36,996 nucleotides of DNA from Fidelibacterota bacterium (GCA_013202495.1 JABMQQ010000024.1:1-36996), one strand, 5' to 3'. Shown: positions 15,558 to 25,260, counted from the stretch's first letter. The notes: generated from the sequence alone by a model not told the origin. Translations and numbers: made by a program.

Positions 15558-16823
15558 ATGCGTTTAAAAACAATAGGCTCACTACTCATCATTGGGTTCT
15601 GTCTCCCCGGATTTAGTCAGTCAAATTCACCAATAACTTTGGACGATTGCATCCGTATTGGATTGGAAAACAATCAATCTCTAATAATAAACCGCTTTGA
15701 AACCGACCGAAGTGTCTCCCAGGCTAAGAGCAATATTGGTATGGTCTTGCCAGTAGTTAATTTTTCAGTATCAGGTGGTAGTTCTGATCTCGCTGGGACT
15801 GGCTGGAACGATGGCTACTCCTCCTCACTTACTCTGTCTCAGAATATATGGGATGGTGGTGCCTGGTGGAATACCCTCAAATCCGCTAAAGTTGCTCAAG
15901 ATGCAGCCTCCATCCAGTATGAGAGTTATGAAGTTAATACCGTATACAAGACTAAAGCTGCCTACTACAACTACCTTTCCACCCAGCAATTGCTGGATGT
16001 CTACCGTGAGAATCTCACAACAAGTGAATATCAACATCAGCTCACACTTGAAAGATTCAAATTGGGTGCCGCCTCCCAGAATGATACCCTGAGAACCAGA
16101 GTAAACATTGAACGAGCTCGTCTCCAGATCGTTAATGGAAAGGTTGACTTACAATCAAGATCTCGCAACCTCAACATCATTCTAGGCCGTGATGCAAATG
16201 ACCCACTGTTCCTGGTGAACCCAGTTTGGCAAGCTGTTGTTGTCCCTGGAGTCGATCAAATCATGGATGAGGTTCTGGCCTCAAATCATTCTCTCAAATT
16301 ATTGGAACAGAATAAAGAAATCATGGCATATAATGTAAAAATTGCCAGATCAGGCTATATGCCCTCCCTGGGAATGTCCGCTTCTTATGGAAATAATGGT
16401 GCCACCGCACTAGGAGATGTTTTTGGTGAGAGCACTTCATCAAAGTCTGCGGGAATTTCCCTGAATTGGAACCTCTTCAACGGAACCCGGACAAGCCGTG
16501 GTGTAGAGCAGGGAAAGATTAACGCCAAGCTAGCCATGGAAAACTATGATTTGTCTGAGCGAAATCTCCGCAAAGAGTTGACTCAAACCCTGGAGCAAAT
16601 GGATGCTCTAAACGAATCCGTAACCATCTCTCAACTTATACTGACTGCTTCCGAGCAAGATCTGCTTTTAGCTCAGGAACAGTACAAAATTGGTTCCCTC
16701 TCCATTCTGGATGTATTGAGAATCACGGCGAGCTACGAAGATGCAAAATCGAATTTAATCCGCACCCAACACAATCTGAAAGTTGCTGAAGCAGGACTGC
16801 TTCAATTGATGGGAAAGTGGTAA
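15558..16823 (+). CDS. TolC family outer membrane efflux protein
   Basis: 421 residues with a signal peptide (MRLKTIGSLLIIGFCLPGFS). It then has the two internally related halves of the OEP family: ITLDDCIRIGLENNQSL (near 26-42) opens the first, and the second spans about 225-421. LDDCIRIGLENN and the SYNG/SASYGNNG and ISLNWNLFNGTRTSRGVEQGK passages (near 300-320) are typical of the TolC barrel-tunnel proteins. The trimer would form the outer-membrane duct for the efflux system whose adaptor starts nine bases downstream. AGGAAATTTC precedes the ATG. Substrate cannot be predicted. Confidence 0.93.
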   Translation: MRLKTIGSLLIIGFCLPGFSQSNSPITLDDCIRIGLENNQSLIINRFETDRSVSQAKSNIGMVLPVVNFSVSGGSSDLAGTGWNDGYSSSLTLSQNIWDGGAWWNTLKSAKVAQDAASIQYESYEVNTVYKTKAAYYNYLSTQQLLDVYRENLTTSEYQHQLTLERFKLGAASQNDTLRTRVNIERARLQIVNGKVDLQSRSRNLNIILGRDANDPLFLVNPVWQAVVVPGVDQIMDEVLASNHSLKLLEQNKEIMAYNVKIARSGYMPSLGMSASYGNNGATALGDVFGESTSSKSAGISLNWNLFNGTRTSRGVEQGKINAKLAMENYDLSERNLRKELTQTLEQMDALNESVTISQLILTASEQDLLLAQEQYKIGSLSILDVLRITASYEDAKSNLIRTQHNLKVAEAGLLQLMGKW

Positions 16824-16832
16824 GGGGTTGAT

Positions 16833-18074
16833 ATGTCCAAAAAGAAAATAATAATAATTGTCCTGGTTGTCATTGTTGTAGGTGTTGGTGGATATTTTGC
16901 TGTAAAGAAGGACCAGGGCAATACTAAGGAAGTCCAATCTGCAAAGGTTGAGCGTGGACAAGTCGTTCATAAAGTGGCTGCCTCAGGCAGAATCCAGCCC
17001 GTTGTTGAAGTCGATGTGAGTGCCGATGTGGCAGGTCGTGTCATTCGCATGGCTGTCAAGGAGGGTGACTGGGTCGAGAAGGGTCAATTCCTGGCACAAC
17101 TCGATGCTACGCGCTATAAGGCTGATGTAGATCGTGCTGAGCAGGTCCTGGCTTCCTCGGAAGCTTCATTATCACTGGCTGAACTTGAAAAAAATCAGCA
17201 GTTCGAATTATTCCAAAAAAAATTAGTGAGCGAGCTCATCTATCAGGGAGCTCTCGTTCGTTTTCAGCAAAGCATGTCAGCTAAAAAACAGGCTGAAGCT
17301 GCACTGGCTCAGTCACAGGATAACTATAAAAAGACGATGATGTTTGCACCCATGTCAGGAACCGTTACTCTGGTCAACAAAGAAGTCGGGGAAATGGCTT
17401 TGGGTTCCGCCTTTAGTCGGGACATCATCATGATTATTGCCGACTTGAATGAGATGGAAGTTCTTGTTGATGTAAATGAAAACGATGTAGTTGATGTCTC
17501 CCTGGGTGATACCACTGAAATCGAAATCGATGCACTTCAGGACACCATGTTTCAGGGAATCGTGACTGAGATTGCCCATAGTGCTCAGAATACAGGCGGT
17601 GGTAGTCTTGACCAGGTGACCAATTTTAAGGTACAAATCCGTCTTTTGGATCCACCCCGGGAAATTCGCCCCGGTATGTCTGCAGCGGTAGATATCCGTT
17701 CAGATGTTCAAAATGATGTTCTGTTTGTTCCCATTCAAAGCATCACCATGAGAAAACCCATGCAACTCAAGGAAAAGCAGGATAAAGAACTTTCCCGAGC
17801 TGACAGCAGTATGAATATGGAAGATGAAGATCTGGAGCCCGTTGAAGTCGTCTTTGTCCTGGTAGACAGTGAAAAAGGCAAGGGCAAGGAAGTGATTCAA
17901 CGTGAAGTCGTCACTGGGATTATCGGAGAACGAGATTTTGAAATCCTGTCTGGTTTGGAGCTGGATGATGAAATTGTCACCGGTCCCTATAAAGAAATCA
18001 GCCGTGGTCTAAATGATGGTGACAAGGTAAAGATTACCAAGCGCAAAAAGTTTAACGTTGATGATAAGATATAG
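16833..18074 (+). CDS. periplasmic adaptor (membrane fusion protein), MacA-like
   Basis: 413 residues. An N-terminal membrane anchor (KKIIIIVLVVIVVGVGGYFAV, about 4-24) is followed by a lipoyl-like first half, SGRIQPVVEVDVSADVAG and VKEGDWVEKGQFLAQLD (about 50-90). Then come a helical hairpin (about 95-155), the second lipoyl half with MFAPMSGTVTLVNKEVGE (about 170-190), a beta-barrel domain and a C-terminal membrane-proximal domain. The order matches HlyD/MacA adaptors, which bridge an inner-membrane ABC transporter and a TolC duct. A charged insertion (KEKQDKELSRADSSMNMEDEDLEP, in two halves KEKQDKELSRAD and SSMNMEDEDLEP) lies near 310-335. Part of the operon starting at 14723 or 15558. Confidence 0.92.
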   Translation: MSKKKIIIIVLVVIVVGVGGYFAVKKDQGNTKEVQSAKVERGQVVHKVAASGRIQPVVEVDVSADVAGRVIRMAVKEGDWVEKGQFLAQLDATRYKADVDRAEQVLASSEASLSLAELEKNQQFELFQKKLVSELIYQGALVRFQQSMSAKKQAEAALAQSQDNYKKTMMFAPMSGTVTLVNKEVGEMALGSAFSRDIIMIIADLNEMEVLVDVNENDVVDVSLGDTTEIEIDALQDTMFQGIVTEIAHSAQNTGGGSLDQVTNFKVQIRLLDPPREIRPGMSAAVDIRSDVQNDVLFVPIQSITMRKPMQLKEKQDKELSRADSSMNMEDEDLEPVEVVFVLVDSEKGKGKEVIQREVVTGIIGERDFEILSGLELDDEIVTGPYKEISRGLNDGDKVKITKRKKFNVDDKI

Positions 18075-18086
18075 TCACGCTGAAGT

Positions 18087-18521
18087 CAGAATACAGTAGA
18101 GAGTAGACAGAAGAAAGCAATGCGTAGCCCGGCTAGAAAATTTGAAGACCTCATTGTTTGGCAAAAGGCGCATGCATATGTATTGGCTGTATATAGCCTA
18201 ACCTCATCTTTTCCCAAGTCTGAAAAATATGGATTAGTCAGTCAATTCAGACGGGCCGCTGTTTCTGTCCCTGCAAATATCGCCGAGGGTTGGAGGTGGA
18301 ATGGAATTGCCGACAAAAAGAGATTCTACAACATTTCCCAGGCTTCACTCGAGGAGAGCAGATATTATTTGCTACTTGCTAAGGATTTAGAATATGGCGA
18401 GAGCTCTAAAGCAAATTCACTCTCTGAAGAAGTCTCAAAACTTCTTACTGCCTATATTAAGAATATCAAATTATTATGATTGAAATAACTACAGAATACA
18501 TAATCCCAATGCTCTCTACTG
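18087..18521. repeat. short inverted and direct repeats flanking the four-helix-bundle gene
   Basis: CAGTAGAGAG (18094-18103) and CTCTCTACTG (18512-18521) are a perfect 10-bp inverted pair around the gene at 18120-18479. CAGAATACA occurs as a direct 9-bp repeat at 18087-18095 and 18492-18500. Both flanks have the low-complexity GAATAC/ATTCTG style often seen beside genes of this family. This supports the idea that gene and flanks were inserted as a unit. Confidence 0.5.
18120..18479 (+). CDS. four-helix-bundle protein (23S rRNA intervening-sequence protein family)
   Basis: 119 residues. Family blocks are FEDLIVWQKAHAYVLAVY (8-25), FPKSEKYGLVSQFRRAAVSVPANIAEG (about 32-57; read as FPKSEKYGLVSQFRRAA and VSVPANIAEG) and FYNISQASLEESRYYL (about 68-83). 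This is the S23/IVP-type four-helix bundle (PF05635), a small pentameric protein first found in 23S rRNA intervening sequences. Its function is unknown; nucleic acid binding is proposed. It is not part of an efflux machine, yet lies between the adaptor and ATPase genes, in the same direction, with short repeats on both sides. I read it as a gene inserted in the operon. Confidence 0.92.
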   Translation: MRSPARKFEDLIVWQKAHAYVLAVYSLTSSFPKSEKYGLVSQFRRAAVSVPANIAEGWRWNGIADKKRFYNISQASLEESRYYLLLAKDLEYGESSKANSLSEEVSKLLTAYIKNIKLL

Positions 18522-18594
18522 ACTACTATTTTCTATATTCTGAATTCTCATCACCCACTAAATGTCTGAATGGACAACAATCTCAGAGGGTAAA

Positions 18595-19293
18595 ATGTCA
18601 CTAATCAAGGTCAAAGATCTTTATAAAATATACCAGATGGGGAATACCGAAGTACGCGCCCTGGATGGGGTCTCAGTAACCATCGAAAAGAATGAATATG
18701 TGTCCATTATGGGTCCATCGGGGTCTGGAAAATCCACCCTTATGAACCTCCTGGGGTGCCTGGATACACCCACATCAGGCGAATTTTTTATGGATGGAAT
18801 AAATGTGGCGACCATGGGTGATGATGAATTGGCTCATATCCGAAATAAAAAAATCGGATTTGTATTTCAGACCTTCAACCTGCTTCCCAAATCCACCAGC
18901 CTACGTAACGTCGAATTACCTCTGATTTACAATGGGGAAATTAAAGCACATGAGCGTAGAGATATGGCCATTAAAGCCCTCACAAGGGTGAATCTAGGCG
19001 ATCGAGTGAGTCATAAGCCTAACGAGCTATCGGGTGGGCAGCGACAACGTGTCGCAGTAGCCAGAGCTCTGGTAAACAATCCAGCAATTATTTTGGCTGA
19101 TGAGCCTACTGGTAACCTCGACTCAAAAACAGGTGAAGAAATCATGGTTCTTTTTGATGAACTTCACAAGCAGGGTAACACCATTATTCTGGTTACCCAT
19201 GAGGAGCATATTGCTGCTCATGCTTCACGAGTGGTTAGACTCCTTGATGGCAAGATTGCTGTAGATGAAGCTACTAACAGAGGGAAACCTTAA
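18595..19293 (+). CDS. ABC transporter ATP-binding protein, MacB/LolD-like
   Basis: 232 residues from ATG 18595, which has GAGGG five bases upstream and begins with the usual [16 protein letters not shown]; an earlier in-frame ATG (18562) adds 11 unlikely residues. Walker [10 protein letters not shown] (near 39-47), Q-loop FQTFNLLP (near 90), signature [15 protein letters not shown] (near 143-157), Walker [13 protein letters not shown] (near 163-174) and switch His [11 protein letters not shown] (near 197-207) are all intact. The length and the NLD D-loop fit the MacB/LolD/FtsE class of ATPases that drive mechanotransmission rather than substrate passage. It should pair with the two separate FtsX-type permeases encoded at 19763 and 21402. 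Confidence 0.94.
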
Positions 19294-19329
19294 TCCCATG
19301 CTGTACCTGAAATCCAATGATTTGCAGTT

Positions 19330-19353
19330 TGTCTTCCCGAGCGGAGTCGAGGG
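19330..19353. repeat. REP-like arm, 5' side of GIY-YIG copy 1
   Basis: TGTCTTCCCGAGCGGAGTCG followed by AGGG. It matches the arm at 21026-21049 at all but one position. The GAGGGA at its end lies 11 bases before the nuclease ATG and may act as its ribosome binding site. Confidence 0.85.
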
Positions 19354-19364
19354 ATAATGATTCT

Positions 19365-19766
19365 ATGAAATCCGGTCAAGTTTATATCCTGGAATGTTCT
19401 GATTCGACATTATACACCGGTGTAACCAGCAATCTGGAAAATCGCTTGGCTCAACATCATGAAGGAAATTACCCAGGATACACACATTCGAGAAGACCGA
19501 TAAGATTACTGTGGAATACGGATTTAATGGATATACAGGACGCAATTATCCTCGAAAAGCAGATAAAGAATTGGAGCCACTTCAAAAAGAGAGCACTGAT
19601 TGAAGAGGATTGGGATATGCTTCATTTATTGGCTAAATGTAAAAACCATAGTCATCATAAGAATCTCTCCCTCGACGGAGTTTATACTGAGCGGAGCCGA
19701 AGTGCTCAGGAAGACGAGGTGAAAGTCAACACTAGCAATAAACAATTCCGAAGACTCCTCGTATGA
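19365..19766 (+). CDS. GIY-YIG nuclease domain protein, copy 1, embedded in REP-like arms
   Basis: 133 residues from ATG 19365; the frame is also open back through the 5' arm. A single GIY-YIG domain (about 5-85) shows VYILECSDSTLYTGVTSNL (variant GIY and YTG motifs), the Arg in ENRLAQH, and the catalytic-type Glu in LEKQIKNW. This UvrC/URI-like fold nicks or cuts DNA with a divalent metal; single-domain forms of unknown role are common in this lineage. After about residue 103 the sequence is the translation of the 3' REP-like arm (DGVYTERSRSAQEDE) and the frame ends only at TGA 19764-19766, overlapping the permease start by four bases (ATGA). It shares about three quarters of its residues with copy 2. 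Inserted between ATPase and permease genes of one operon. Confidence 0.88.
   Translation: MKSGQVYILECSDSTLYTGVTSNLENRLAQHHEGNYPGYTHSRRPIRLLWNTDLMDIQDAIILEKQIKNWSHFKKRALIEEDWDMLHLLAKCKNHSHHKNLSLDGVYTERSRSAQEDEVKVNTSNKQFRRLLV
19665..19718. repeat. REP-like arm, 3' side of GIY-YIG copy 1, expanded
   Basis: CCCTCGAC, then an inserted GGAGTTTATACTGAGCGGAG-type stretch, then CTCAGGAAGACGAGG. The ends are the reverse complement of the 5' arm (CCCTCGACTCCGCTCGGGAA); the middle is an extra segment of about 28 bases. The arm is translated in frame with the nuclease. Confidence 0.75.
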
Positions 19767-20983
19767 AAAGTTTCTTCTGGGAAAACTTACGCATTGCGCT
19801 CTCCGAACTATGGAGCCACAAAACTCGGTCAATTCTTACCGGAACCGGTATCGTCATTGGAATCATCGCCGTATCCCTCATGTCCACATTGATCAACGGT
19901 GTAGATGGTCTATTTGAAGAGAGTATGAAATTCCTCGGACGCGGAAATCTGTATATCGAGAAATGGCCCTGGTTTGGGGATGAAGATTGGTGGACCTTGA
20001 GAAATCGACCTCGCATCGAGCTTGACATGGCGGATGAGATTAAGGAACGCTCAGAGTACGCCATGGTCGTTGCTGCGGAAAGAGGGCGATCTGCGAATCT
20101 TAGCTATAAAGATTTATCTGCTGAAAACATTTATATTCATGGCGTGACATCAAACTACCCAGAGGTATCAACTGTAGATGTCGAATTTGGCCGCTTTTTT
20201 ACTGAATCTGAGGATCGAACCGGGGCACAAGTTGTGCTCCTGGGTTCTGAAGTGGCAAAGACCCTATTCCCACAGGGAAATCCTGTGGACAAAATGATTT
20301 TTGCTGGTTCAAAGCGGTTTAGGGTCATTGGTGTTCTGGCTGAAATGGGAAAATTCATGGGAGCCTTTTCAAATGATACCCAGGTTATCATTCCTCTCGC
20401 CACATTTAATAAAATTTTTCATGGTCCCTGGGGGCGCAGGAGTATCACCGTTAAGGTCCCGGAACACCTCGTGGAAGAAGCCAAAGAAGAACTACGAGGT
20501 GTTGTCCGGGTATTGCGTGGCCTCAAACCAGAAGAAAAAGACAATTTTGCCATCAATCAGCAAAATGCCTTTCGACAAACATACCAGGGTATCAAACTAG
20601 CCATCGGAGGAACGGGGATGATCATTACAGCCCTCTCCCTGCTGGTCGGCGGAATTGGAATTGCCAACATCATGTTCGTGTCAGTTAAAGAACGTACCCG
20701 AGAGATTGGCGTACGGAAAGCACTTGGTGCAACCCGTAGTCAAATTCAAGGACAGTTTCTTATTGAGGCCATGGTCATCACAGCTTCTGGTGGATTGGTG
20801 GGACTGATCATCTCTACTGTAATCAGCATGGCTATCAGTAAATTTTTATTCCCCGCGACCATGTCATTTGGCGTGGCCTTTATGGCCATTGCCCTCAGTG
20901 CTGCTGTGGGATTATTTGCCGGTCTGGCTCCTGCACGAAAAGGCGCAAAACTGGATCCCATCGAAGCCCTGAGATATGAATAG
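19763..20983 (+). CDS. ABC transporter permease, MacB/FtsX type, first copy
   Basis: 406 residues. An N-terminal membrane helix with RSILTGTGIVIGIIAVSLMSTL (about 19-40; shown as RSILTGTGIVIGII and AVSLMSTL) is followed by a long extracytoplasmic core (about 45-275, MacB_PCD type), then three helices of the FtsX domain (about 285-400). The sequence VKERTREIGVRKALGATRSQ (near 309-328) is the cytoplasmic coupling helix signature of the family, and APARKGAKLDPIEALRYE closes the protein. It lacks a fused ATPase, so it works with the separate ATPase at 18595. A GIY-YIG frame overlaps its ATG by four bases, so it may be translated by coupling. Confidence 0.93.
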   Translation: MKSFFWENLRIALSELWSHKTRSILTGTGIVIGIIAVSLMSTLINGVDGLFEESMKFLGRGNLYIEKWPWFGDEDWWTLRNRPRIELDMADEIKERSEYAMVVAAERGRSANLSYKDLSAENIYIHGVTSNYPEVSTVDVEFGRFFTESEDRTGAQVVLLGSEVAKTLFPQGNPVDKMIFAGSKRFRVIGVLAEMGKFMGAFSNDTQVIIPLATFNKIFHGPWGRRSITVKVPEHLVEEAKEELRGVVRVLRGLKPEEKDNFAINQQNAFRQTYQGIKLAIGGTGMIITALSLLVGGIGIANIMFVSVKERTREIGVRKALGATRSQIQGQFLIEAMVITASGGLVGLIISTVISMAISKFLFPATMSFGVAFMAIALSAAVGLFAGLAPARKGAKLDPIEALRYE

Positions 20984-21025
20984 TCCAGTCCAATGATTTT
21001 AGTTGTTAATTACATGACTTCAGAA

Positions 21026-21049
21026 TGTCATCCCGAGCGGAGTCGAGGG
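21026..21049. repeat. REP-like arm, 5' side of GIY-YIG copy 2
   Basis: TGTCATCCCGAGCGGAGTCG followed by AGGG. Its reverse complement matches 21365-21388 except for a few bases, so the two arms can pair across the nuclease gene. GAGGGA at the end lies 11-12 bases before the nuclease ATG. Confidence 0.9.
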
Positions 21050-21060
21050 ATATCGAACAG

Positions 21061-21411
21061 ATGAGACAGGGGCAAGCATACATATTAGAATGTTCTGATG
21101 GCTCATTATACACTGGAATAACCAGCAATCTAGAAAATCGATTAGCCCAACACCAGGAAGGAAATTTCTGGGGCTACACTCATTCTAGACGACCCTTGAT
21201 ATTGCTTTGGAATACCGATTTCTTAGATATTCAAGATGCCATTCTACTCGAGAAACAAATTAAAAATTGGAGTAGAAAGAAAAAGAGAGCTCTGATCAAT
21301 GAAGAATGGAATATTCTCCATTTGCTATCAGCGTGTAAAAACTCCAGTCACAGTAATAACATTTCCCTTTACTCCGCTCGGGATGACGAGGACAATTATC
21401 AATGTATGTAA
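21061..21411 (+). CDS. GIY-YIG nuclease domain protein, copy 2, embedded in REP-like arms
   Basis: 116 residues from ATG 21061; an in-frame ATG inside the 5' arm (21025) would add SSRAESRDIEQ. The domain has AYILECSDGSLYTGITSNL, ENRLAQH and LEKQIKNW, as in copy 1. The last residues (YSARDDEDNYQCM) are the translation of the 3' arm, and the frame runs 10 bases into the second permease gene. Single-domain GIY-YIG proteins are metal-dependent DNA-cutting enzymes by fold; the natural target is unknown. Being framed by inverted repeats that also occur without the gene (25099-25260) suggests a role in moving or maintaining those repeats, similar in logic to REP-associated RAYT transposases but with a different enzyme. 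This is inference. Confidence 0.9.
   Translation: MRQGQAYILECSDGSLYTGITSNLENRLAQHQEGNFWGYTHSRRPLILLWNTDFLDIQDAILLEKQIKNWSRKKKRALINEEWNILHLLSACKNSSHSNNISLYSARDDEDNYQCM
21365..21388. repeat. REP-like arm, 3' side of GIY-YIG copy 2
   Basis: CCCTTTACTCCGCTCGGGAT followed by GACG. It is the inverted partner of 21026-21049 and ends 13 bases before the start of the second permease. Confidence 0.9.
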
Positions 21412-22658
21412 GAACCACCCTAAAGACACTCAACGATGCCTTCTTCATGGCTCTGGAAGCTATTCGAGACAACTTGCTACGTTCTATACTTACCCTGCTG
21501 GGAATCGTTATTGGCGTGTTCGCCATTATCGCAGTGATGACTGCCATCCGTACCCTGGAATCATCAATCAACACCGGCCTAAACGTATTTGGCTCTGACG
21601 TAATTTTTGTCCAAAAATCACCTGTGATTCAGATGGGAGATCATAATAGCAGACGAAAATATTGGCGCCGTCCCAATATTACCTATGATATGGCGTTGGA
21701 ATTAAGAGATCGCATGCTTGGTGCTGAATTTGTCAGTGCTCAGGATGGGACTGGAGGCAAGACCATTCGCTATAAAAAAGAGAAGACCAATCCCAATGTT
21801 GGTGTCCAGGGAGTTGACGAATTCGGTTTGGAAGCCTTGAATCACAAGCTTGACTATGGCAGAAATTTCATCCCTGAGGATATTGAATACAGTCGCCGGG
21901 TGGTTATTCTGGGCACGGATGTCATTCAAAAACTATTTCCCTTTCAGGATCCAATAAATCAGACAATTACTATCAACGGCATTGGTTTTGATGTGATCGG
22001 CACCCTACAGCGCAAAGGAGAGATGTTTGGCCAAAGCCAGGATAATTTCGTCATTGTCCCTATCACTGCCTATCTCAATTACTATGGGAGTCGCTGGACT
22101 TCCCTGGGCATTTCCATTAAAGCACCAGATGGTGAGAGCTTTGATTTGACAAAAGAAGAAGTCATCGATCAAATGCGTATTGTCCGCGGACTGGGACCTG
22201 TAGATGAGAACGACTTTGAAGTGACCTCAAATGATGCTCTTATAGATACATTTGGCTCCTTTACTGCAGGAATTAAGATGTTCGCCGGAGCTGTGAGTGT
22301 CATCGCCCTGGTGGTTGCAGGTATTGGCATCATGAATATCATGTTGGTTTCAGTAAGTGAGCGCATCAAGGAAATCGGTGTCCGTAAAGCCATTGGCGCC
22401 ACGAGGAATAACATTCTCTTTCAATTCTTGCTGGAAGCTGTTTTTCTTTCGCTCATTGGTGGTGTAATTGGAGTATTGCTTGGTGTTGGTGTGGGCAATA
22501 TGGTGACCCTGGTTATGAAAAATGTGGAACCTGTTATTCCCATAGATTGGGTATTTATTGGATTGGGGGTCTGTTCATTTATTGGGATCGTATTTGGCAT
22601 CTACCCTGCTTATAAAGCCGCAGGCCTGGATCCAATTGAATCCCTGCGCCACGAATAG
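21402..22658 (+). CDS. ABC transporter permease, MacB/FtsX type, second copy
   Basis: 418 residues. The layout is that of the first permease: RSILTLLGIVIGVFAIIAVM (about 29-48) is the first helix, the extracytoplasmic core spans about 50-285, and the FtsX domain follows, with VSERIKEIGVRKAIGATRNN (near 322-341) as coupling motif and AYKAAGLDPIESLRHE at the end. Two different permeases with one ATPase imply a heterodimeric transporter of the YknXYZ/MacB kind, here joined to a TolC duct. The start ATG lies 10 bases inside the end of the preceding GIY-YIG frame. No strong ribosome binding site precedes it, since AATTATCA is the spacer, so coupling is possible. Confidence 0.93.
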   Translation: MYVRTTLKTLNDAFFMALEAIRDNLLRSILTLLGIVIGVFAIIAVMTAIRTLESSINTGLNVFGSDVIFVQKSPVIQMGDHNSRRKYWRRPNITYDMALELRDRMLGAEFVSAQDGTGGKTIRYKKEKTNPNVGVQGVDEFGLEALNHKLDYGRNFIPEDIEYSRRVVILGTDVIQKLFPFQDPINQTITINGIGFDVIGTLQRKGEMFGQSQDNFVIVPITAYLNYYGSRWTSLGISIKAPDGESFDLTKEEVIDQMRIVRGLGPVDENDFEVTSNDALIDTFGSFTAGIKMFAGAVSVIALVVAGIGIMNIMLVSVSERIKEIGVRKAIGATRNNILFQFLLEAVFLSLIGGVIGVLLGVGVGNMVTLVMKNVEPVIPIDWVFIGLGVCSFIGIVFGIYPAYKAAGLDPIESLRHE

Positions 22659-23392: not shown

Positions 23393-23424
23393 AAAAGCCC
23401 CTGCCAATTGGCAGGGGCTTTTCT
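23393..23424. terminator. fully palindromic bidirectional terminator
   Basis: A perfect 30-base palindrome (23393-23422) made of AAAAGCCCCTGCC, an AATT centre and its exact complement. It has T-runs on both strands. It lies 23 bases after the DUF4395 stop and about 105 bases after the proS stop on the other strand, so it can end both transcripts. Confidence 0.92.
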
Positions 23425-23428
23425 TTCC

Positions 23429-23522
23429 AAACCTGTTTTCAGCGAGTGGAACGAGTCAAACAGGTTTAAGTGATTTGATATTGCCAATTGAAACCAGTTT
23501 GGCTACGCTGAAAACTGGTTTC
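23429..23522. repeat. two REP-like hairpins in opposite orientation
   Basis: Hairpin A pairs AAACCTGTTT (23429-23438) with AAACAGGTTT (23458-23467). Hairpin B pairs GAAACCAGTTT (23490-23500) with AAACTGGTTTC (23512-23522). Read on opposite strands, both stems lead into the same TTTTCAGCG apex, so B is an inverted relative of A. The pair resembles a BIME-type arrangement. Hairpin B ends seven bases from the proS stop. Confidence 0.8.
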
Positions 23523-23528
23523 GGAATA

Positions 23529-25098: not shown

Positions 25099-25260
25099 GT
25101 CATCTTGAGCCTGCCTATGCCGTAGCAGTTTCGTGCAGGCAGGCGGAGTCGAGAGATACAAATACTAATTATCAACATCAAAAGATCACCTCGAATTACC
25201 CCTTCTAACCTTTCCTGGACACGCTAATTATCCCACCTCTCGACTCCGCTCGAGGTGACG
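25099..25260. repeat. solo REP-like inverted pair without a GIY-YIG gene
   Basis: Left arm 25099-25156: GTCATCTTGAGC, then an inserted hairpin (CCTGCCT 25110-25116 with AGGCAGG 25137-25143), then GGAGTCGAGAGA. Right arm 25236-25260: CCTCTCGACTCCGCTCGAGG followed by TGACG. The arms are inverted relatives of those framing the GIY-YIG genes, but only about 80 bases lie between them. The rest of the 24969-25391 gap shows no gene; a TTGACA at 25324 has no convincing -10 partner. Confidence 0.85.

Follow-up and report, generated by a model that had tools for sequence, protein, structure and literature searches.

Two short genes encoding GIY-YIG nucleases are inserted between the genes of a MacAB-like efflux operon in the genome of an uncultured Neomarinimicrobiota bacterium, and each is accompanied by two copies, in opposite orientations, of a short imperfect palindrome that we call the arm. 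This locus raises two questions: whether nuclease and arm belong together, and whether the nuclease moves the arms. We analyzed the window, that is the whole stretch of 36,996 nt, together with related genomes and with nuclease loci from other phyla.

Two Nuclease Genes at the Junctions of an Efflux Operon

The two genes match PF01541 (E values of 3e-15 and 8e-16) and are 73–75% identical, as expected from the original prediction of two single-domain genes with about three quarters identity. They occupy two stop/start junctions of the operon, ATPase/permease-1 for gene 1 and permease-1/permease-2 for gene 2. The features of the locus are as follows:

15558-22658, efflux operon: outer-membrane efflux protein, HlyD, ABC ATPase and two MacB/FtsX permeases
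18120..18479, + strand, four-helix-bundle gene (PF05635, 23S rRNA intervening-sequence protein), HlyD/ATPase junction of the same operon
18562..22658, + strand, host operon segment
18562-19293, + strand, ABC ATPase
19331..19354, + strand, left arm of unit 1, GTCTTCCCGAGCGGAGTCGAGGGA, with its GAGGGA end 10 nt before the nuclease ATG
19365..19766, + strand, GIY-YIG nuclease gene 1, 133 aa, TGA stop sharing bases with the ATG of the downstream permease gene (ATGA)
19668..19715, - strand, right arm of unit 1
19763-20983, + strand, MacB/FtsX permease 1
21027..21050, + strand, left arm of unit 2, GTCATCCCGAGCGGAGTCGAGGGA
21061..21411, + strand, GIY-YIG nuclease gene 2, 116 aa, overlapping the start of the downstream permease gene
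21364..21387, - strand, right arm of unit 2, within the coding sequence
21402-22658, + strand, permease 2 (MacB/FtsX)
25099..25156, + strand, left arm of a gene-less pair
25236..25259, - strand, right arm of the gene-less pair

The left arm has the form GTC(A/T)TCCCGAGCGGAGTCGAGGGA in both units and ends 10 nt before the ATG. Each gene had been described as bounded by a left arm and, on the right, by its reverse complement. The left arms agree with this description, whereas the right arms are neither simple nor gene bounding: both lie within the 3′ ends of the genes, that of unit 1 being split by a nested hairpin (at about 19677-19704) that includes a second arm-like core, and that of unit 2 carrying 2 mismatches. 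The arm starts of unit 2 are 337 nt apart, matching other genomes. The right arm encodes the C-terminal tail of the nuclease (SLDSARDD in relatives), and the ORF runs into or close to the beginning of the following gene before it stops. This overlap of the nuclease stop with the permease start reads A/GTGA in six of the seven nuclease copies at site 1.

According to the nuclease tree, the 15 arm-bearing nucleases form one clade (support 100/98), hereafter clade A. All 15 clade-A genes carry arms, which bears out the proposal that the arms and this nuclease clade belong together. The suggestion that GAGGGA acts as a Shine-Dalgarno-like sequence also holds throughout the clade, GGGA being placed 8–10 nt upstream of the ATG in 15/15 members and at exactly 10 nt in 12 of them. 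The proteins consist of a single GIY-YIG domain with the conserved Tyr, Tyr, Arg, His, and Glu of the superfamily; Y7, Y17, G19, R27, H31, and E64 are invariant in the 15 clade-A nucleases and in 38 diverse relatives. The closest PDB structures to an AF2 model (pLDDT 91.6) are the UPF0213 proteins 1ZG2 and 1YWL, followed by Slx1. Both the modeled fold and the residues are those expected of an intact GIY-YIG enzyme. With a dN/dS of 0.05–0.20 where dS is unsaturated, the gene is under purifying selection, and hence the enzyme is retained. Searches of plasmids and phages returned only distant GIY-YIG relatives, all with <60% identity.

Arm Sequence and Structure

The 15-nt core of the arm has five matches in the window (≤3 mismatches) for 0.37 expected, a number reached in none of 100 shuffles. 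Pattern searches allowing at most 3 mismatches, on which all our genome counts are based, identified 30 copies of the 24-nt arm in the genome and none of the reversed control. These shuffles and the reversed control rule out chance or low complexity as the source of the arms.

The arm can be folded on paper into a hairpin that has, besides the head, an outer stem of 4 bp, a GA bulge of 2 nt, an inner stem of 2 bp, and a loop of 6 nt. Covariation in the outer stem is pronounced, with 17 cells altered on both sides for 4.0 in shuffles (0/500), and the signal is lost when the partner column is slid. Compensatory changes of one pair were found in 27 of the 37 arms with two mismatches (chance 0.7% each), a proportion that overstates the number of events given the non-independence of related copies (of 13 distinct types, 3 are compensatory). 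As the folding energy of a single DNA arm (−1.7 to −4.2 kcal/mol) corresponds to no significant stability, the case for a hairpin rests on covariation and not on energy.

Some arms are part of, or contain, other structures. A lone arm in locus L100 (G000:C189:10100-12100) is embedded in a longer terminator-like hairpin (AAAGTCTTTGTGTCATCC...GGGACACAAAGACTTTT). Others are interrupted right after the GAG of the loop, at 25110-25143 in the window and in L356 (G002:C52), L354, L355, L357, L358, and L212. The interrupting inserts are small hairpins, either CCTGCC...GGCAGG or a nested arm, and it looks as if the arm loop were a hot spot of breakage or insertion.

Dispersed Gene-Less Pairs

Close arm pairs follow a strict orientation rule: in five genomes, 41 are head-out, one is same-strand, and none is head-in. 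Their spacings fall mostly at 47–56, 89–104, and 336/337 nt, with two intermediate values of 60 and 69 nt, and the 336/337-nt class corresponds to the gene unit. The gene-less pairs are intergenic and dispersed genome-wide. One had been recognized in the window; it is indeed there (25099-25259), with a left arm that is not intact, being split after GAG by a CCTGCC...GGCAGG palindrome. Comparison of orthologous spacers revealed presence and absence of such pairs. At one spacer, a gene-less pair is present in G000, G009, and G008 and absent in G010, G007, G004, G003, and G005; at another, G000 has a pair, G009 and G010 have remnants of one, and five other genomes have none.

Only three of the 30 arms listed in this genome adjoin a GIY-YIG gene of the clade. 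Arms mostly unlinked to nuclease genes had been named in advance as a finding against a REP-mobilizing element. This proportion does not decide the matter because REPIN-type systems look the same. Across 19 genomes the number of arms correlates only moderately with the presence of the nuclease (Mann-Whitney p 0.009), and arms persist in genomes with no clade-A nuclease detected in assemblies about 90% complete (30 arms in G016 and 18 in G009).

Empty and Occupied Operon Junctions

We compared 16 operons from fifteen genomes of the same genus (one genome has two), which provided 31 readable junctions. Thirteen are empty, with 3–11 nt from stop to start codon, 11 contain a GIY-YIG unit with arms, and seven contain other inserts: three GxxExxY genes (PF13366), one four-helix-bundle gene (PF05635), and three arms or hairpins only. 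The unit is common to separate assemblies, which rules out an assembly artifact. All 15 clade-A nucleases are in this operon and none was found elsewhere. Three are located at HlyD/ATPase (including the G008 copy, which sits at a contig end and whose ATPase neighbor is inferred), seven at ATPase/permease-1, four at permease-1/permease-2, and one after permease-2. Because these copies occupy four sites of one operon, the gene has moved, or been gained and lost, between neighboring junctions. The original prediction of an autonomous element with a non-autonomous derivative is therefore supported by the genome-wide gene-less pairs and not by the gene unit, which does not disperse freely (15/15 in one operon, at four junctions).

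Junctions with and without the element thus exist as anticipated, although neither exact ends nor target duplications could be defined at the junctions and spacers compared. The exact boundaries are not fixed because the relatives are 75–90% identical there, and the ends of the inserts are undefined because the inserts extend beyond the arms, by 30–50 nt past the left arm and by about 12 nt or more past the right arm. The inserted DNA is longer than the arm-to-arm interval, which had been taken as the extent of the element. The exact terminal inverted repeats and target duplication of insertion sequences and MITEs were not seen in these elements. Nor is the unoccupied allele an intact target, as it is for homing elements: the empty junctions have no arm.

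Association of Hairpins and Nucleases across Phyla

A single scan of named genomes returned 80 nuclease loci from phyla including Bacteroidota, Cyanobacteria, Nitrospinota, Nitrospirota, and Cloacimonadota, as well as from Ignavibacteria, Calditrichota, Gammaproteobacteria, a Sulfurovum, and Actinobacteria. Hairpins of the type stem-GAG-N(1-16)-CGA-stem occur at 2.40/kb within about 300 bp of these nucleases and at 0.10/kb further out, an enrichment of about 24-fold. Scrambled motif constants gave 0–0.02/kb; a run with TCG/CTC does not serve as a control, being the motif's own reverse complement. Same-phylum controls gave 0.11/kb around GxxExxY genes, 0.05/kb around four-helix-bundle genes, and 0 around three Y1 transposase genes. 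With a stem length of 4, a hairpin is found upstream in 57 loci, downstream in 52, and on both sides in 43. The nearest upstream arm is on the + strand in 44/56 loci and the nearest downstream arm on the - strand in 42/51, which repeats the head-out orientation seen in the window. The loop-closing pair is T-A in 176 of 182 hairpins.

The core of the loop differs between nuclease clades. All 14 clade-A genes for which a hairpin was scored have CGAGCGGAGTCGAG; a sister clade has TGAGGCTCTCGAA and a third clade TGAGTGAAACGAA, while the stems vary. Within the phylum the loop core thus tracks the clade of the nuclease (0 of 1000 permutations; Mantel rho 0.30), a correlation that includes a contribution from the shared ancestry of gene and flank. 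Near other GIY-YIG clades of the phylum, we observed GTCATTGCGAGG...GCAATCT repeats flanking L008, L118, L120, and L137 and GTCATCCTGAACTTGTTTCAGGATCT repeats flanking L119 and L131, which appear to be further clade-specific arms.

Other Small Genes at the Same Junctions

Unexpectedly, two unrelated families of small genes, with their own unrelated arms, occupy the same operon junctions. Inverted arms of the CCGCAGAG/AACCACAGATT type exceed the shuffled null in 13/30 GxxExxY (PF13366) loci, and arms of the AATTANGAATT type do so in 17/25 four-helix-bundle loci; this null is lenient for both, their arms being of low complexity and periodic. The PF05635 gene of the window has inverted AGAATA-type flanks (region 18074-18562) and represents a different element family at an equivalent operon position. 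Located at these same junctions, the GxxExxY genes in L072 (G002), L075 (G003), and L071 (G001) are enclosed by inverted arms of the CCACAAAGGCACAAAG or CGCAGAG type, and site 2 of G002 contains an arm-only remnant of 186 bp. An inverted doublet at 23424-23526 in the window (AACCTGTTTTCAGCG.../...CGCTGAAAACTGGTTTC) is similar to the palindromes on either side of the Y1 transposase (RAYT) gene in L011 and represents a distinct REP system of this genome.

A Candidate Nuclease–Hairpin System and Its Alternatives

The association of arms and nucleases, the orientation rule, the stem covariation, the match of loop and clade, the presence and absence at orthologous sites, and the purifying selection are best explained, in our judgment, if the arms are the cognate single-stranded hairpin target of the GIY-YIG nuclease that they enclose. 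We consider it probable, with a good deal of doubt left, that the two form a two-part system like REPIN-RAYT in which the tyrosine transposase has been replaced. Recognition of the arm by the nuclease, as judged from sequence, is well supported by their association. The loop would be the recognition code: the enzyme would read GAG-N5/6-CGA, and probably the GTCA head too, in single-stranded arms such as those of a cruciform, of transforming DNA, or of a replication fork. We infer that it cuts the single-stranded arm, at a site likewise inferred, and that this cutting drives the spread. Once two head-out arms had been cut, the strand from arm to arm (the 360-bp gene unit or a pair without a gene) would be released or exposed, and host repair would copy or paste it elsewhere; to our knowledge, no strand-joining step has been described for a hydrolytic nuclease of the GIY-YIG fold. 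Expression of the nuclease would depend on the Shine-Dalgarno-like end of the arm and be coupled to the following gene. Its gene would be retained by selection in one efflux operon while the gene-less pairs, as the non-autonomous form, spread through intergenic space. The absence of gene units outside the operon counts against a mobile unit; it is also typical of REPIN-RAYT.

The purifying selection and operon coupling also suggest a gene useful to its host, and the gene units are not dispersing. These observations suit a nuclease that moves nothing but cuts single-stranded arm DNA, tuning natural transformation or recombination, while homologous recombination and gene conversion spread the arms passively. 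Such a role is reported for the Neisseria enzyme Ssn, said to act on hundreds of dispersed repeats and to affect transformation. We regard it as rather unlikely here, as precise head-out doublets with discrete spacings, gained at orthologous spacers, imply a replicating unit. Homing, in which the nuclease would cut a lone arm elsewhere and repair would copy in the unit or the pair through arm homology, has a precedent in the known GIY-YIG homing enzymes; gene units and arm-only remnants share the same operon junctions, and the recurrent interruption after GAG looks as if arms had been broken and patched. However, homing predicts gene units at many of the ~30 dispersed arm sites, and 15/15 are in one operon, next to empty junctions devoid of an arm, so that we find this mechanism improbable.

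Two further alternatives seem to us very improbable. One would make the arms ordinary REPs mobilized by a RAYT (Y1 transposase), the nuclease having come between them by chance or by hitch-hiking. The genome does encode three Y1_Tnp proteins, and the arm, with its head, imperfect hairpin, and doublets, has a REP/REPIN-like architecture (PMC3116915). Nevertheless, these three genes are flanked by other palindromes and have no GAG-N-CGA hairpin within ~300 bp, on which ground we reject RAYTs as the mobilizers, and the arm–nuclease association recurs in many phyla. The other would reduce the arms to signals of expression or transcript stability (supply of a Shine-Dalgarno sequence, attenuator, or 3′ hairpin), gained with small genes by ordinary recombination. 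It accounts for the fixed GGGA-ATG spacing in clade A and for the ability of inverted arms to pair in mRNA (z −6.95), but hardly for arms located about 70–110 nt from the ATG in other nuclease clades, or for the majority of arms in the own genome, which have no gene nearby.

More tentatively, and with doubt prevailing, the GIY-YIG, GxxExxY (PD-(D/E)XK), and PF05635 families may be convergent members of one unrecognized class of miniature mobile elements. Each would consist of a small gene between its own inverted arms at operon stop/start junctions, with gene-less pairs as non-autonomous derivatives, the GIY-YIG nuclease reading a clade-specific loop and driving the spread. Operon junctions at which three gene families come and go are a natural experiment on the tolerance of operons to insertion. 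A nuclease clade that predicts the repeat loop would explain why GAGCGNAGTCGA-type REP-like hairpins, which we found beside this nuclease in Bacteroidota, Neomarinimicrobiota, Cyanobacteria, Nitrospinota, and other phyla, exist and would give a direct assay; if this is true, it provides a catalog of natural sequence-specific single-stranded DNA nucleases with predicted targets.

Comparison with Known Systems

UPF0213/YhbQ-like GIY-YIG proteins (PDB 1ZG2 and 1YWL) have the same fold and the same length; both were deposited as uncharacterized proteins, and the entries name no repeat association. Slx1, matched by fold at ranks 3–7, acts on branched DNA, but is a multi-domain protein that works with Slx4 and has no repeat partner. 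The homing endonucleases I-TevI and I-BmoI share the class of catalytic domain and the combination of an inserted gene with a target. Unlike them, the nuclease described here has no DNA-binding tail or intron, and its gene is inserted beside its own repeat and not in a conserved gene.

The original prediction that no mechanism had been described for the pairing requires qualification, since the pairing of GIY-YIG nucleases with repeated targets has a precedent. The nearest relative of the arm-linked nucleases is presumably the Ssn/NTS system of Neisseria meningitidis. Ssn enzymes are reportedly site-specific GIY-YIG nucleases that cut single-stranded DNA (a study of 2025 in Nature Communications), and the family is said to include many homologs with differing target sequences. 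Both systems combine a small single-domain GIY-YIG nuclease with a palindromic repeat in many dispersed copies, also near the gene, as seen here from the 30 copies in the own genome and the cross-phylum enrichment. They differ in features known here from sequence: the position of the gene between two inverted arms, the head-out orientation and preferred spacings of gene-less doublets, presence and absence at orthologous operon junctions, and loop-clade matching. Our search of the open-access literature found no report linking GIY-YIG proteins to REP-like repeats and no relevant paper with the arm sequence. It likewise contained no description of arm-gene-arm units, of doublets in head-out orientation, of their presence or absence at orthologous sites, or of the cross-phylum loop motif, which is weak evidence of novelty.

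The REPIN-RAYT comparison made originally is upheld by the gene-less inverted pairs scattered over the genome. In REPIN-RAYT systems, dispersal is seen for the inverted doublets, and the phylogeny of RAYTs mostly mirrors that of the species (Bertels and Rainey 2011, PMC3116915). Both systems have short extragenic imperfect palindromes with a head, arranged as inverted doublets of preferred spacing, and repeat copies flanking one stationary gene, while the doublets are dispersed. The protein, by contrast, is a GIY-YIG nuclease here and not the HUH/Y1 tyrosine transposase that defines RAYTs, the copies number tens here and hundreds there, and the genuine RAYTs of the same genome have other palindromes. 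If our reading is true, the REPIN-RAYT lifestyle has evolved with a different enzyme chemistry. The organization thus resembles that of REPIN-RAYT, and the pairing of a GIY-YIG nuclease with repeats is already reported for Ssn/NTS.
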